64,000 bases of DNA from Afipia sp. (lineage in GTDB: Bacteria > Pseudomonadota > Alphaproteobacteria > Rhizobiales > Xanthobacteraceae). Below the pieces are notes generated by a model. That model was given only the letters and a program-made list of their open reading frames with translations. It made no database searches and was not told where the DNA came from. A program made the translations under genes and the position numbers. How positions within the stretch are numbered: the stretch's first letter is position 1; each line of letters opens with the position of its first letter. Of the stretch, positions 3,578 through 34,869 are shown piece by piece. The stretch spans positions 620,001 through 684,000 of the forward strand of contig JANINQ010000021.1 in assembly GCA_024508675.1 (NCBI GenBank), read 5' to 3'.

Positions 3578-4984
3578 CTAGCTGCCGGTGGCCTGACTGG
3601 CGATTTCGTGTTCGCAGGGGTTCTCGGCGCATACGCGATCGCAACTTACATATTTGCGAAATACCGGCCGTATCGGATCGCCGACGAGATGCTGATCCAG
3701 CCCGTGTTCCAGCGCGTGCGCATAAACCGCGAAAGCCTGGTCGAACGCCTCAACAATCGTATCGACGTCGGACTCGGTGTGCGAGAAGCACGGCAGAAAC
3801 ACACCCTGAAACAGCACGCCCCGCCCGATCATCTCCTGCAGCAGCAGGGTGCGGAACGCCAGCGAGACCTGCCCGTCAGCGTCCTTGCAATTGAAGAAAA
3901 TCCGCCATGGTGCCGGATGCAATTCGACAGCGCGGCCAATTTTATGTTTTTCGATTGCGCGGCGCACTCCTTCACCAACGCGAGCGACAATGCGCCGATG
4001 ATGACCCAGCACATCCTTGGTGCTGTATTCGCGAATAACAGCACGCGCGGCCGCAAGCGAATGAGCCTCACCGCCGTGCGTGGATGAGAGGAGAAACACG
4101 CGAGGCCGGGACGTCTGCTTGATTCCGCCGAGATCCATAATCTCCGCCCTACCCGTCAACGCACAGAACGAGAATCCATTGCCGCTTGCCTTGCCCCATG
4201 TCGCCAGATCCGGCGACAGTCCAAGCTGGACGTATGACCCGGGTAATCCGGCGCGAAAGCCGGTGATCATCTCATCGACGATGAAAACTGCACCACCACG
4301 CTTGGCAATCACTTCAATTGCGCGAACCGCGTCTGGCGAGAACGGTATCATCTCCTCCGGTTCGGTAATCACGCAAGCGATCTGTCCGGGATATTTTGCG
4401 AACAGCTCAGACAGGGTGTCCGGATCAGTCGAGTCGTAGGTGAGCGAGAAGCGCCGCACACCGTCCGGAATGCCCGAATGAATCGACGTGGAGCCAATGA
4501 ACCAGTCGTCGAAGCTGAAGAAGGGATGGTTCTTCGGAAAAGCCACCAGTTCGCGGCCAGTATAGGCGCGAGCCAACTTAACAGCGGCGGTCGTGACGTT
4601 GGACCCGTTTTTCGCAAACTTGATCCGGTTCATACCCGGGGTCAGCGCGAGAAATTCCTCCGCAAGGTCAAGCTCGAGAGCCGCAGGACGCTGAAAACCG
4701 GCACCTAATTCGAGTTGCTCGCGCACCGCGCTCAGAACCGGTTCATAGGCATGACCGAGACTGACCGCCCCGAGGCCGAGCGTGCAATCGATGTATTCGT
4801 TATCATCGACGTCCCAGACGCGAGCCCCTTTGCCTCGGGCAATTGCCGCAGGAGCTAGTGCCGGAAATTGATCATCGCCTCGTGAATAAGTGTGTGCGCC
4901 GCCGACGATCACCTGGTGCACGCGTTCGCGGTACCGGTCGGACAACGCAAAATTTGTGACCGTACGAGGCGGCAGGTTACTCAT
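3578..4984 (-). CDS. Class III PLP-dependent aminotransferase (glutamate-1-semialdehyde aminomutase-like)
   Basis: Aminotransferase of 468 residues. The start at ATG 4984 (MSNLPPRTV) has GGGAAA upstream and avoids a non-conserved leader. Family features are GKGARVWDVDDNEYIDC, the KFAKNGSNVTTAAVKLARA cofactor region, ACVITEP, VFIVDEMITGFR and the ATWGKASGNGF segment with the PLP lysine. The C-terminus has GVFLPCFSHTESDVD, like glutamate-1-semialdehyde aminomutases. In this surface-sugar context a role in haem synthesis is unlikely; homologues occur in polysaccharide and flagellin-glycosylation loci. First gene of the operon with the cytidylyltransferase and acyltransferase. Substrate unknown. 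Its predicted promoter lies at 5118-5146. Confidence 0.82.
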   Translation of the reverse strand: MSNLPPRTVTNFALSDRYRERVHQVIVGGAHTYSRGDDQFPALAPAAIARGKGARVWDVDDNEYIDCTLGLGAVSLGHAYEPVLSAVREQLELGAGFQRPAALELDLAEEFLALTPGMNRIKFAKNGSNVTTAAVKLARAYTGRELVAFPKNHPFFSFDDWFIGSTSIHSGIPDGVRRFSLTYDSTDPDTLSELFAKYPGQIACVITEPEEMIPFSPDAVRAIEVIAKRGGAVFIVDEMITGFRAGLPGSYVQLGLSPDLATWGKASGNGFSFCALTGRAEIMDLGGIKQTSRPRVFLLSSTHGGEAHSLAAARAVIREYSTKDVLGHHRRIVARVGEGVRRAIEKHKIGRAVELHPAPWRIFFNCKDADGQVSLAFRTLLLQEMIGRGVLFQGVFLPCFSHTESDVDTIVEAFDQAFAVYAHALEHGLDQHLVGDPIRPVFRKYVSCDRVCAENPCEHEIASQATGS

Positions 4985-5177: not shown

Positions 5178-6497
5178 TCAGATGGCCGATTCATCAGCAA
5201 TAGCCTGGTAAACCTGCTTGAACACCGAGGGAACGATGCGGTTGATATTGTCTGCCTCCAACCCGACGTACGGATATGTGATGTTGGTGCTGGGCAGAAG
5301 CCGGGCCTGAAAATCCGCGACCATCTGCCGAGGATCATAGTTGGAGATGAAACCCTTCACTGCTCCGAAATACTTGTAATCGACGGGCTCGGCATTCTCC
5401 GGGATCAAACCCCTTTCCCGAACATACTTCAGACAATCGGCCCGCCAGGCCTCCGCCGTAACATTCATGTCCCCTACCGGATAGGCAAATTCGATCTGAA
5501 GAAGGTCGTTCTTTTTTCCTGCAATCGCTCCCGGAAAGGAAATGCGATTGATCGGGACGTCCTTCTCACCGATCAGAATCTCATGAAACCGAAACGGAAG
5601 TTCGTTCTCAAACGCATAGCTGCCCAGGCACAGCATTTGCGGATGAGCGACAGGAAACTCCATGCCGAGCAGACGGCCCATGATGACGAGCGGCGCGCAC
5701 CAAAAATAGCGAGTGGCCGAGTAAGAGTTGCCGTCAATAACGATGCTCGAGACCCGCTGATCCTTCTGATCCAGAGCGACGTCGAGGGATGCGAATCCCT
5801 TCACCACCTTCACGTTGGAATGATCGATGTGATCGTATATTCCGGCGATGAAAGCACCAAATCCGCCTTCGTTCGGATACATCACCAGATGTTCGCCCTG
5901 ATTACGAACCTTCTGGTGAAACTTGACCCACTCCGGACCATCTACCGCCTTTGGCGAAGTCTGAGGAAAGAACCATGGATAGACCGAGTCCATCAAATCG
6001 GATTCCGGCTTGCCCTTCTTCCTTTGCCAGGCCAGCGACGGATACGACGGCAGGATTTCGTCGAAAGCAACACGCATCAGATAAGATCCATAGATCTTCT
6101 CGATCGCGTCTCGCGTTGGCGGTCCGTTCAAGCTGTCGTGAAATTCCGACGCGCTGATCTTGTCAGCAAGAGCCTTCGGCCATTCTGAAATCGGAGCGTT
6201 ATAAGGCAACGTATGCCCCTGCAAAGCTATGCCTCGCCGCAAGGACAATAAATGAAACTTGTCCTTCAGCATCCGCGCAAAATAACGCGTGGTGAATGGC
6301 GACCGGTTGTAATCGATAGTGTGATATCCGAAATCGAAGGTATCGCCTCTGGCGTTCTGAAAGGAACCGTTGGTGCCGCCCAGGCTTGCTTCCTTTTCCG
6401 CAAGCAAAACGCGATAACCAGCCTGGCTCAAAATCTGGGTAGTAATCAGCCCCGATATTCCGCCACCGATAACGACAGCATCAAACTTCTCATGCAT
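5178..6497 (-). CDS. FAD/NAD(P)-dependent oxidoreductase of the amine-oxidase / UDP-galactopyranose mutase-like superfamily
   Basis: Flavoprotein of 439 residues. It begins MHEKFDAVVIGGGISGLITT, a canonical FAD dinucleotide motif, followed by LLAEKEASLGGTNGSF. The C-terminal part (YVGLEADNINRIVPSVFKQ) fits the second flavin-contacting region. The start at ATG 6497 is preceded by AAAGGGGC. Similar proteins act as mutases, desaturases or protoporphyrinogen-type oxidases, so the reaction is not determined. It is divergent from the methyltransferase at 6571 with a 73 bp gap and lies upstream of the operator at 5118-5146, so it probably has its own promoter. Position suggests a surface-sugar role. 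Confidence 0.75.
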   Translation of the reverse strand: MHEKFDAVVIGGGISGLITTQILSQAGYRVLLAEKEASLGGTNGSFQNARGDTFDFGYHTIDYNRSPFTTRYFARMLKDKFHLLSLRRGIALQGHTLPYNAPISEWPKALADKISASEFHDSLNGPPTRDAIEKIYGSYLMRVAFDEILPSYPSLAWQRKKGKPESDLMDSVYPWFFPQTSPKAVDGPEWVKFHQKVRNQGEHLVMYPNEGGFGAFIAGIYDHIDHSNVKVVKGFASLDVALDQKDQRVSSIVIDGNSYSATRYFWCAPLVIMGRLLGMEFPVAHPQMLCLGSYAFENELPFRFHEILIGEKDVPINRISFPGAIAGKKNDLLQIEFAYPVGDMNVTAEAWRADCLKYVRERGLIPENAEPVDYKYFGAVKGFISNYDPRQMVADFQARLLPSTNITYPYVGLEADNINRIVPSVFKQVYQAIADESAI

Positions 6498-33018: not shown

Positions 33019-33735
33019 TGGTGTCTCCCTTGGATCGACTCTGCGCGCAGGCGCGCTGCGATGCAACCGTTGACATGGACCGGGACGTGAGGAAACCGCC
33101 TTGTTCTTTACGGCAGCGCGCTTGGCGCTTGCACCATTCGCGCCAGAAAAATCTGCGCCTATTCGCAGACGTGCTTGATCATCCCTGTTCTTTACGGCGC
33201 GGGCGCGCCGGAGAGGTCTTGCATTCCCGCCCTCCTGAATGAGGGCGCGCGGAACGCCGGATGCTCAGCGCATCCGCAGCCTCATGCGCAATGAAAACAA
33301 GCGCACGAGTGTAGTCACCACGAAAGCACCGGACACATCCGGCGTTCCGCACGCAATGGTTTTAACGGCTTGCTTCGCGAAAACCCCCGGTGAACGAGCC
33401 TTAGGTAATCACCGCTGAGAGGACTTATTGCCGCCTCGCGCCCTCTTGCGAGGGCGGAGTTGGCGTTGCCTCATGGCGCAAGGCGATGCGCCGGGATAAC
33501 GCGCTTTGGGCCGTCCGCAATACGACGCCGTCGTCTCCCTGCCGGTGATCTTTCGGACCCAAACAGGTCCGCTCCCGTTGGCCGGCAGAGCGACGCCGCA
33601 AGCGGCCACCGCATCCCGCCCCGCGTTCGTGACGATCGCGAGCGCCCCTCATGTGGGACGAGATGAATAGGAATATATACCCATACTCACTCGACGTCAA
33701 GTTGTTTGGCTTAGTATTCCCTCTCAGCGCTAAAT
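33019..33735. other. Gene-free stretch with repeats, downstream of the reverse transcriptase
   Basis: About 700 bp without a convincing gene. It holds a direct repeat TGTTCTTTACGGC at 33102-33114 and 33185-33197, the long-armed inverted repeat at 33249-33350, and a second GC-rich block to about 33655 that looks like more dispersed-repeat sequence. Short open frames on the minus strand (for example 33425-33700) are arginine-rich, lack a ribosome site and look like by-products of the repeat. The last 80 bp before the reverse transcriptase stop turn AT-rich, marking the edge of a compositional island. Confidence 0.6.
33249..33350. repeat. Inverted repeat with perfect 15 bp arms
   Basis: GCGGAACGCCGGATG at 33249-33263 is the exact complement of CATCCGGCGTTCCGC at 33336-33350, enclosing 72 bp. 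It is followed by ACGCAATGGTTTTAACGGCT. I recall very similar sequences scattered between genes in Bradyrhizobium-group genomes, so it is probably a family-wide dispersed element and not a terminator of one gene. Confidence 0.7.
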
Positions 33736-34482
33736 CTAAACAGGCTCGGAAGTAGAATTGTTGGAAGCCACCAGATGCCGATATTGCGCGAAGGATGCGT
33801 CTGATAGCGGCGTCCTCGTCTCTTTCGCCTCATATTTAGCAACTCGGTCGGCGGTAACGTTTGCCGAGCGGAATGTGAGGTCACAGTTAAACGCCGTTAT
33901 AGCTGTAGTAGGTGGTACAAGTTTATCTGGATTTGGAATAAGCCCCGCCGCAACGGAAGCAGTTCGAATGTCGTTGTATGCGGCTTCGAGAACATGCGGG
34001 TCGTCGTGCGATCCGATAAAGTCATCCATGTATACAGATACACAGACACCGTTCTCAATCGCTCTTACGATTGCAGCGTCTACCTGCGACTTCATTAGTA
34101 CGAGACTAGCCAACAGTGGCGATTGAACAAATCCGATCGGCAACACATGATTGGTTGTGCCAGGATATGGATTTTTTACACACGACCAAGTCGCAAGTGT
34201 ATTTGCGCCAGGATATGCGTAGCTCCGCAACGCGCGCGTAACGCGCATTCGGTTAATCGAATAGTAGAAATTCTGAATGTCAATTTTAAAGAACAGCTTA
34301 TTGGCAAGATGCGCGTGAAGTGCTGCAACATGCCCACCGCTCTTATAGTGATAGAAGTATTCCGGAAATTCAAAGCGCGAGAAAAACTTAATTATACGAC
34401 GTCCCTTGCGTTCGCACTGCTCAGTGGGAACGAAGATGTATCTACCTCTTGTGCGATACTTGAATTTGTAATTCGTGAGCAT
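33736..34482 (-). CDS. Compact reverse transcriptase (retron/UG-like RNA-directed DNA polymerase)
   Basis: Protein of 248 residues with the ordered RT motifs: RT1 YIFVPTEQCERKGRRIIKFF (15-34), RT2 HYKSGGHVAALHAHLANK (45-62), RT3 FFKIDIQNFYYSI with Asp68 (64-76), RT4 LPIGFVQSPLLASL (114-127), RT5 VSVYMDDFIG with Asp153 and Asp154 (149-157), and RT6/7 NPDKLVPPTTAITAFNCDL (184-202). It stops about 45 residues later, so there is little or no thumb, and it is shorter than group II intron or typical retron enzymes. GC is around the mid-40s by eye against over 60% nearby, a sign of transfer. Its ATG lies inside the preceding small membrane-peptide gene. A phage-defence role is an inference from such small unclassified RTs. 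Confidence 0.88.
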   Translation of the reverse strand: MLTNYKFKYRTRGRYIFVPTEQCERKGRRIIKFFSRFEFPEYFYHYKSGGHVAALHAHLANKLFFKIDIQNFYYSINRMRVTRALRSYAYPGANTLATWSCVKNPYPGTTNHVLPIGFVQSPLLASLVLMKSQVDAAIVRAIENGVCVSVYMDDFIGSHDDPHVLEAAYNDIRTASVAAGLIPNPDKLVPPTTAITAFNCDLTFRSANVTADRVAKYEAKETRTPLSDASFAQYRHLVASNNSTSEPV

Positions 34483-34600
34483 TGCAGTTGACGACCTTAT
34501 TCGCTAATTCGATCAGGAGCTTGATGGCCGTCAAGACCGGCACCAAAAACACTGCGACATCGCGAATAAGGTTCGCCATACGTGCAATAAACTTGCGCAT
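34442..34600 (-). CDS. Small single-helix membrane peptide overlapping the reverse transcriptase
   Basis: Predicted 52-residue peptide from ATG 34600, preceded by GGAG eight bases upstream. A basic N-terminus (MRKFIARMANLIR) leads into a hydrophobic helix (DVAVFLVPVLTAIKLLIELA) and a polar tail with NKVVNCNAHELQIQVSHKR. It overlaps the reverse transcriptase gene by 41 bp in another frame, so translation is probably coupled. The size and layout recall membrane-acting toxins or anchors, but I do not recognise a family. The frame extends further upstream without a ribosome site. Existence is supported by the ribosome site, hydrophobic pattern and overlap only. Confidence 0.5.
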   Translation of the reverse strand: MRKFIARMANLIRDVAVFLVPVLTAIKLLIELANKVVNCNAHELQIQVSHKR

Positions 34601-34869
34601 ACAGCGTCTCCATTCGTTACACCGCCAGCTACCAGCGACACCAAGATTATGGAGCCGACAACCGAGAAGGATCCCCGTAGCGCTATTTGCCTTGGAGTCT
34701 TCGAGCCGGAGCGTCACGTCGCCGAAACGTTCATAACGCCGCCGTGGTCGCCAGGTCTTCGCCGACGGATAGCTCCAACATGGGCAGAGATGGAACTTCT
34801 GGCAAGGGGCCAAACATGATGTCGGATACGCACTGAATGCTCAATACCGCACCGCAACAAGCGGCCCCC
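34601..34869 (-). other. Leader region upstream of the membrane peptide and reverse transcriptase; no clear gene
   Basis: Lies between the arginase stop and the small membrane peptide. Parts read as short coding-like pieces in two frames on the minus strand (one ends at 34731 with PMLELSVGEDLATTAAL, the next runs into the peptide), which may be remnants of a frameshifted gene. A non-coding RNA partner of the reverse transcriptase, if there is one, should be sought here and in 33660-33735. I could not find a convincing msr/msd pair by eye. Confidence 0.4.

Follow-up and report, generated by a model that had tools for sequence, protein, structure and literature searches.

The module described here lies on the minus strand of the window, by which we mean the whole stretch of 64,000 nucleotides of Afipia sp. 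DNA that was analyzed. Its last gene (33736..34482) encodes a compact reverse transcriptase (RT) of 248 residues, identified by a match to the Pfam profile RVT_1 (56.4 bits, cut-off 29.6), by a structure model and by its catalytic residues, with D68 encoded at 34279-34281 and the YMDD motif (residues 151-154) at 34021-34032. Upstream lies an open reading frame (ORF) for a micropeptide of 52 residues (34442..34600), basic and hydrophobic or amphipathic, which is supported by homologues, alignment, hydropathy and natural fusions. The two ORFs overlap by 41 bp in different frames, and a Shine-Dalgarno-like GGAG (34608..34611, from reading the sequence) stands 7 nt 5' of the peptide ATG. Both genes and their overlap had been described in the original prediction and are confirmed. 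That description of a two-part pair was correct as far as it went and overlooked a third part, a structured non-coding RNA (ncRNA) upstream of the peptide that resembles the msr-msd of retrons (34619..34772, ends approximate) and is detected by a covariance model, R1. Covariation marks a long-range stem within it, P1, with an a1-like 5' arm CCGTCGGC (34761..34768) and an a2-like 3' arm GCTGGCGG (34622..34629). From ncRNA to RT stop the module spans about 1.04 kb in the window. GC content drops as predicted, to 47.7% in the RT and 46.5% in the peptide gene compared with 60.6% in the window, slightly higher than the mid-40s first given.

By ORF reading, the flanking genes are arginase-like and FAD monooxygenase-like. 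Among the 61 genomes searched, its own included, two gave a match at E≤1e-3, and the second match has only 27% identity. One genome with the same flanks (G027) has about 527 bp between the arginase gene and the downstream repeat, compared with about 1.19 kb in the window. Because its own genome alone holds a close copy and G027 is shorter between the same flanks, we consider the module an accessory insertion. Around it, the best 20-mer repeat matches at 16 of 20 positions against a shuffled maximum of 14, a marginal signal, and a clear insertion repeat was found at one of the 19 listed loci elsewhere (L005). At L005, a 38-bp direct repeat (4540-4577 and 5863-5900) brackets the ncRNA-peptide-RT module and spans the 3' end of a tRNA-Gly, so that the inserted unit measures about 1.3 kb. 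The window also contains, at 33167-33685, a dispersed repeat (about 520 bp) that occurs many times in the genus, at roughly 70-90% identity, and has additional copies within the window's own genome.

The predicted RT model is of high confidence (pLDDT 96.3). The RT had been said to have little or no thumb; the model shows that there is one, though a short one, consisting of two C-terminal helices (211-218 and 225-239). When the model was searched with Foldseek, ranks 1-15 were all chains of retron entries and the first DRT appeared at rank 16, and all four PDB sequence matches were retron RTs. RT_VI was the best PADLOC profile for the window RT (50 bits, compared with 26 for Drt3a and 22 for UG17) and also for the enteric RTs L045, L012, P0156, P0139 and P0121. 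Across 11 family RTs, including two fusions, the top profile was a retron type in 10 and a CRISPR RT profile in L013; a DRT/UG profile was best in none. RT_VI scores were 50 bits for the window, 80 for L012 and 38 for L013, against 213-301 in the eight best RT_VI matches. The family forms one clade in the tree (support 100/100), separate from L050-L053 and L056. The profile search and tree called for at the outset therefore give a retron-type best match and a separate clade.

Retron RTs are defined by an NAxxH motif in region X and a VTG motif in region Y. Both are present in many retron reference RTs, and neither was found in the family RTs in alignments of 45 and 59 rows. Four residues (A54, H58, F198 and N199) are invariant in both alignments, and their equivalence to the NAxxH and VTG sites is our reading. 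The retron-type fold, in the predicted model, and the catalytic YxDD are both present, as is an upstream ncRNA bounded by a1/a2-like inverted repeats, a further retron hallmark. Judged by sequence and model, the RT is a compact, retron-like RT in a clade of its own. A group II intron fragment was considered and rejected (TIGR04416 scored 12.7 bits against a cut-off of 300, and the window has no Rfam match), in line with the earlier statement that no group II maturase domain is present.

To count the micropeptide across the family we used a script that chooses the most hydrophobic candidate ORF. At 35 of the 41 loci it picked up a small hydrophobic ORF whose end lies close to the RT start, and it failed or took another ORF at L019, L020, L041, L042, L043 and L044. 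Inspection of the frame translations by eye revealed a family-like ORF in five of these six; the divergent L044, where none was seen, is the one locus lacking the peptide among those of this set and the next that have enough upstream DNA. In a second set, a small ORF precedes the RT at all 38 distinct loci with enough upstream DNA (49 loci, from which 2 with short upstream DNA and 9 with identical upstream sequences were removed). The 41-locus set contains same-strain copies obtained by two routes, and the sets overlap, L160 and L168 being the contigs of L022 and L020; L119 and L120 are the contigs of L074 and L075. Since the script favours hydrophobic candidates, these counts are biased towards success and the shared motif is the better argument. 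In the alignment, the peptides have a basic start and a hydrophobic helix followed by N-Y or N-C: K-V-[VA]-N-C in the window's clade and N-Y in the others, with exceptions that include L020/L168 and L042/L043. The helix and this motif are kept from alpha- to gammaproteobacteria, overlap of the peptide ORF with the RT start is common across the family, and a peptide profile recovered 44 small proteins, the window's own included, among 308 candidates.

In some members the peptide forms the N-terminus of the RT chain itself. This is the case for P0156 (302 aa, named Klebsiella pneumoniae), whose cluster comprises 173 member sequences and 1000 contigs, and for P0139 (309 aa, Serratia); at the DNA level the fusion was confirmed at two of the 38 loci (L132 and L136). 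The proposal that RT and peptide are a conserved pair has thus held up, with close and distant homologues keeping both and natural fusions occurring. The codon-substitution analysis suggested with it gave a signal that is frame-specific and weak, with a pN/pS of 0.64 in the peptide frame compared with 1.25 and 1.20 in the other two (10 sequences, 39 codons outside the overlap); codon position 3 was not more variable (21 of 39 columns, compared with 22 and 19).

For membrane helices, a Kyte-Doolittle value of 1.6 is the threshold used. Over 19 residues, the maxima of 18 family peptides range from 0.97 to 2.37 and exceed this threshold in 12. A place of the helix in the membrane is plausible only: Hessa sums, calculated with no position weighting, run from 1.9 to 10.2 and are thus positive, meaning unfavourable, in 18 of 18 peptides, and the hydrophobic moments are 0.35-0.70. 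By these sequence measures the helix of the peptide is hydrophobic and amphipathic and falls short of a clean transmembrane segment, and insertion into the membrane is possible. Because the RT comes after the helix in the fusions, a cytoplasmic RT would need the helix to be oriented N-out or to lie on the membrane surface.

The DNA between the arginase and peptide genes is conserved, and no common reading frame was seen in it. In the window's clade (15 sequences of 23 loci, with near-copies and L041 omitted), 97.5% of the cells of the 8-bp P1 stem are paired, its covariation score was reached by none of 500 shuffles, and pairing falls to 14-67% when the partner is shifted by 1 to 3 columns. 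Changes on both sides are seen at two of the eight pairs, which 72 of 500 shuffles match, and the covariation in this clade, taken alone, is moderate. Ten rhizobial sequences share a stacked P1+P2 with 95.5% of cells paired and both-sided changes at 10 of its 18 pairs, a number reached by none of 500 shuffles. R1 was built from these 10 sequences only, with the window's clade excluded. Applied to 40 sources, it found 14 of the 15 window-clade loci at E≤1, each where expected and 13 with E≤3e-4, and at the E≤1 limit missed L020 and all 25 other sources, whether enteric, type VI or other. In the window R1 gives a single match (34618-34772, minus strand, E 5.5e-5), which is also the single match in the whole genome (E 0.0038, with 150 of 990 first-look candidates scored). 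Because a model built elsewhere finds this site and no other, we take the ncRNA at the window locus to be real, and this is the strongest evidence for it. The thermodynamic fold alone is not unusual (z 0.79 in the window, -0.49 to -1.68 in four relatives), and Rfam gave no match in the window and no retron family at five loci (E≤1).

The enteric ncRNAs were compared in 31 sequences, namely 28 of the 38 distinct loci plus L012, L046 and L047. First comes a1, CCTGACG in most of them, with an invariant AG; short hairpins, a variable part and a conserved hairpin follow, and after these a2 and finally the ribosome site of the peptide. P1 is paired in 95.6% of cells, and six of its eight pairs are changed on both sides. 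A second helix, between the segment behind the first hairpin and the Shine-Dalgarno region of the peptide, is paired in 77.7% of cells and likewise has six of eight pairs changed on both sides. Taken together, the two helices outscore every one of 500 shuffles in four measures out of five; in the remaining one, further pair types, 59 of 500 shuffles reach them. As the order is a1, anti-site, a2 and site, the two helices cross, as in a pseudoknot or a switch. A swap test was run on 23 of these sequences, the other 8 being near-duplicates. The sequences' own pairs summed to 504.0, compared with a permuted mean of 400.8 and maximum of 454.4, and none of 5000 permutations reached the observed value. 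The result varies per sequence: the site of L158 is paired as well by 21 of 22 foreign RNAs. Masking of the peptide ribosome site is not supported for the window's clade, where 2245 of 5000 permutations were as good (12 sequences, of which L010 was cut 3 nt too far), and for the rhizobia, where 2966 of 5000 were (8 sequences). Because the swap test fails in these two groups, we claim the pairing for the enteric branch only. As R1 misses the enteric RNAs at E≤1, it is their layout alone that relates them to the window's RNA. The position just after a1, where retrons have their branching guanosine, is a G in 31 of 31 enteric, 13 of 15 window-clade and 6 of 10 rhizobial sequences. The ncRNA of L127 (2644-2849) has a variable part made up of tandem copies of the 9-nt unit GGGACTCCT, and L047, L125 and L158 have other repeats.

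Among known systems the likely working resembles that of retrons most closely, and the module is a candidate for strict retron status, of which msDNA with a 2'-5' linkage is the mark. By sequence it is akin to a type VI retron and not one itself, because it has no HTH gene and its RT falls in another clade. The two share RT_VI as best profile, and the type VI loci L050-L053 likewise have a small ORF, in their case the HTH gene, whose end reaches the RT frame or lies slightly within it. However, type VI RTs have about 300-330 residues instead of about 250, and the family differs from them in lacking NAxxH and VTG, in its lower RT_VI scores and in its separate clade. Between ncRNA and RT we find the peptide alone, and the peptides of the window, L045, L012 and L013 have no PADLOC match, while HTH_VI matches the ORFs before the RT in L050 (9e-31) and L053 (6e-26). 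A QSP motif, tried as a link to type VI, was discarded: in the type VI references it lies near the N-terminus, outside the catalytic region. Besides their HTH gene, L050-L052 carry a basic hydrophobic ORF of 49-57 aa some 320-525 bp before the RT frame, a feature they have in common with the module. That of L050 had no PADLOC match, and these ORFs may encode an undescribed effector.

The Klebsiella and Serratia fusions, as single chains with a putative effector, recall the retrons in which RT and effector are fused (I-C, XI, XII; Eco2/Ec67 is solved). There, however, PADLOC labels indicate a folded enzyme domain, whereas here a single N-terminal helix is fused and the peptide stays separate in most members. 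For Eco2, the part of PMC12405507 used here gives the effector domain as Toprim. DRT2, DRT9 and DRT10 likewise combine an RT with a structured RNA in mobile settings, but DRT systems score lower by profile and structural rank, and the listed DRT2 and DRT9 chains have 425-499 residues. Type I toxin-antitoxin systems combine a tiny, hydrophobic peptide with an RNA able to mask its ribosome site. The enteric branch shares both elements, but its RNA lies in cis upstream and is tied to an RT, and the masking has no support in the window's branch. The RT-peptide pair is undescribed in those portions of the retron and DRT literature that our search covered, with the original retron classification (doi 10.1093/nar/gkaa1149) outside it, and may have been published.

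A protein search with the window RT gave 317 homologues among 871 candidates (the best 120 of the 317 are listed), and one with an E. coli relative gave 72 among 398. Counting its own genome each time, the module RT occurs in 5 of 397 genomes of the order, 1 of 289 of the class (rhizobial query) and 7 of 398 of the phylum; another genus of the same family has it in 14 of 265. Matches were also found in 9 of 72,556 plasmid records, in 13 phage records, all of Klebsiella phages, and in 34 of the 5,426 E. coli genomes, among which 32 contain 80% or more of the query module. A further 9 loci came from genome contigs, and viral contigs gave 4 loci in one search and 45 in another. The pair of E. coli strain C2 (L045) occupies the end of a P2-like prophage, with an ogr-like gene on one side and ssrA on the other. 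Seven of the nine plasmid stretches are annotated: by annotation, three have within 4 kb neighbours named RES/Xre, AbiEii, or abortive infection family with DUF1837 and a helicase, and four do not. On two different plasmids the module adjoins a pair of an S8 family peptidase and an ATP-binding protein (L013 4841-8323, L024 1-3068). In the stretches read, the RT is annotated only as 'reverse transcriptase domain-containing protein'. The Salmonella Typhi protein STY2879, in the part of PMC4409374 used here, is a LAMP diagnostic target whose function is left open and an RT of 257 aa with 99% similarity to the E. coli member WP_000151541. The module ranges from soil bacteria to the prophages of gut bacteria.

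The reading we favour, with a probability of roughly 55% that includes the effector mechanism, is a minimal retron-like module made of an ncRNA of about 150 nt with a1/a2-like repeats, an amphipathic peptide of about 50 aa and a compact RT. It is based on the co-conserved parts, the stem covariation, the predicted retron-like fold, the catalytic residues, the fusions and the occurrence in prophages and plasmids. By analogy with retrons, the RT would bind the ncRNA and copy part of it, and the resulting RNA-protein (RNA/DNA) complex would hold the peptide inactive. Damage to or modification of the complex by a phage would then release the peptide, which may disturb the membrane and so abort the infection. 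In the enteric branch, the pairing of the ncRNA with the ribosome-binding site of the peptide suggests a second, translational lock. From settings and kinship alone, we infer that the module may act in anti-phage defence.

A serious if rather unlikely alternative is that the peptide is no effector and instead a split-off N-terminal subunit of the RT, possibly also its anchor, that stands in for the N-terminal helices preceding the fingers in canonical retron RTs. Alignment of the RT model with retron RTs begins only at their residue 22 (Ec83) to 42 (Ec86), so relative to them the RT is without 21-41 N-terminal residues, and the peptide gene sits exactly there; the in-frame fusions and the amphipathic helix with its uniformly positive Hessa sums would fit such a subunit. 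Yet in an AlphaFold prediction of the fusion the helix was neither placed nor docked (pLDDT 34-49, with fusions or peptides making up 8 of 60 alignment rows), Kyte-Doolittle maxima reach 2.3-2.4, and the covarying ribosome-site pairing of the enteric branch suggests a free peptide that needs limiting. It is highly improbable that the small ORF is a mere translated leader coupling RT translation to the upstream RNA: the common overlap with the RT start and the weak pN/pS would suit a leader, but not the helix and N-Y/N-C motif shared by alpha- and gammaproteobacteria, the in-frame fusions or the 44 small-protein homologues.

We also consider it quite improbable that the module is a DRT-like (UG) system, in which cDNA would be made from the ncRNA by other priming and the cDNA or its product would be the effector, with the peptide accessory. 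The separate RT clade, the fact that only one of three clades has an invariant priming G and the tandem repeats in some ncRNAs, such as that of L127, point in this direction, and tandem-repeat synthesis is reported for DRT10 in the part of PMC12632851 used here. Against it, the UG/DRT profiles score below the retron ones and the first DRT in the structural search comes after 15 retron chains.

Within the retron-like reading, a further and unlikely possibility is that a retron and a type I-like toxin switch have merged, in such a way that the RNA bound and copied by the RT also masks the ribosome site of the membrane-active peptide. The masking pseudoknot would cross the a1/a2 stem; the pairing is supported in the enteric branch, and its use as a switch is hypothetical. 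If the two have merged, how much toxin is translated would depend directly on reverse transcription or on loss of the complex between RT and RNA. More broadly, this is a very small retron-like module of three parts, in which a partner with a single helix accompanies an RT of about 250 aa, and an RT of this size with a defined RNA would be of technical interest if cDNA is made. The fusion and the pairing at the ribosome site also provide direct ways to test whether the peptide is an effector, and members of the family are found in E. coli prophages, in the cluster of 1000 contigs named Klebsiella pneumoniae and in Salmonella Typhi (STY2879).
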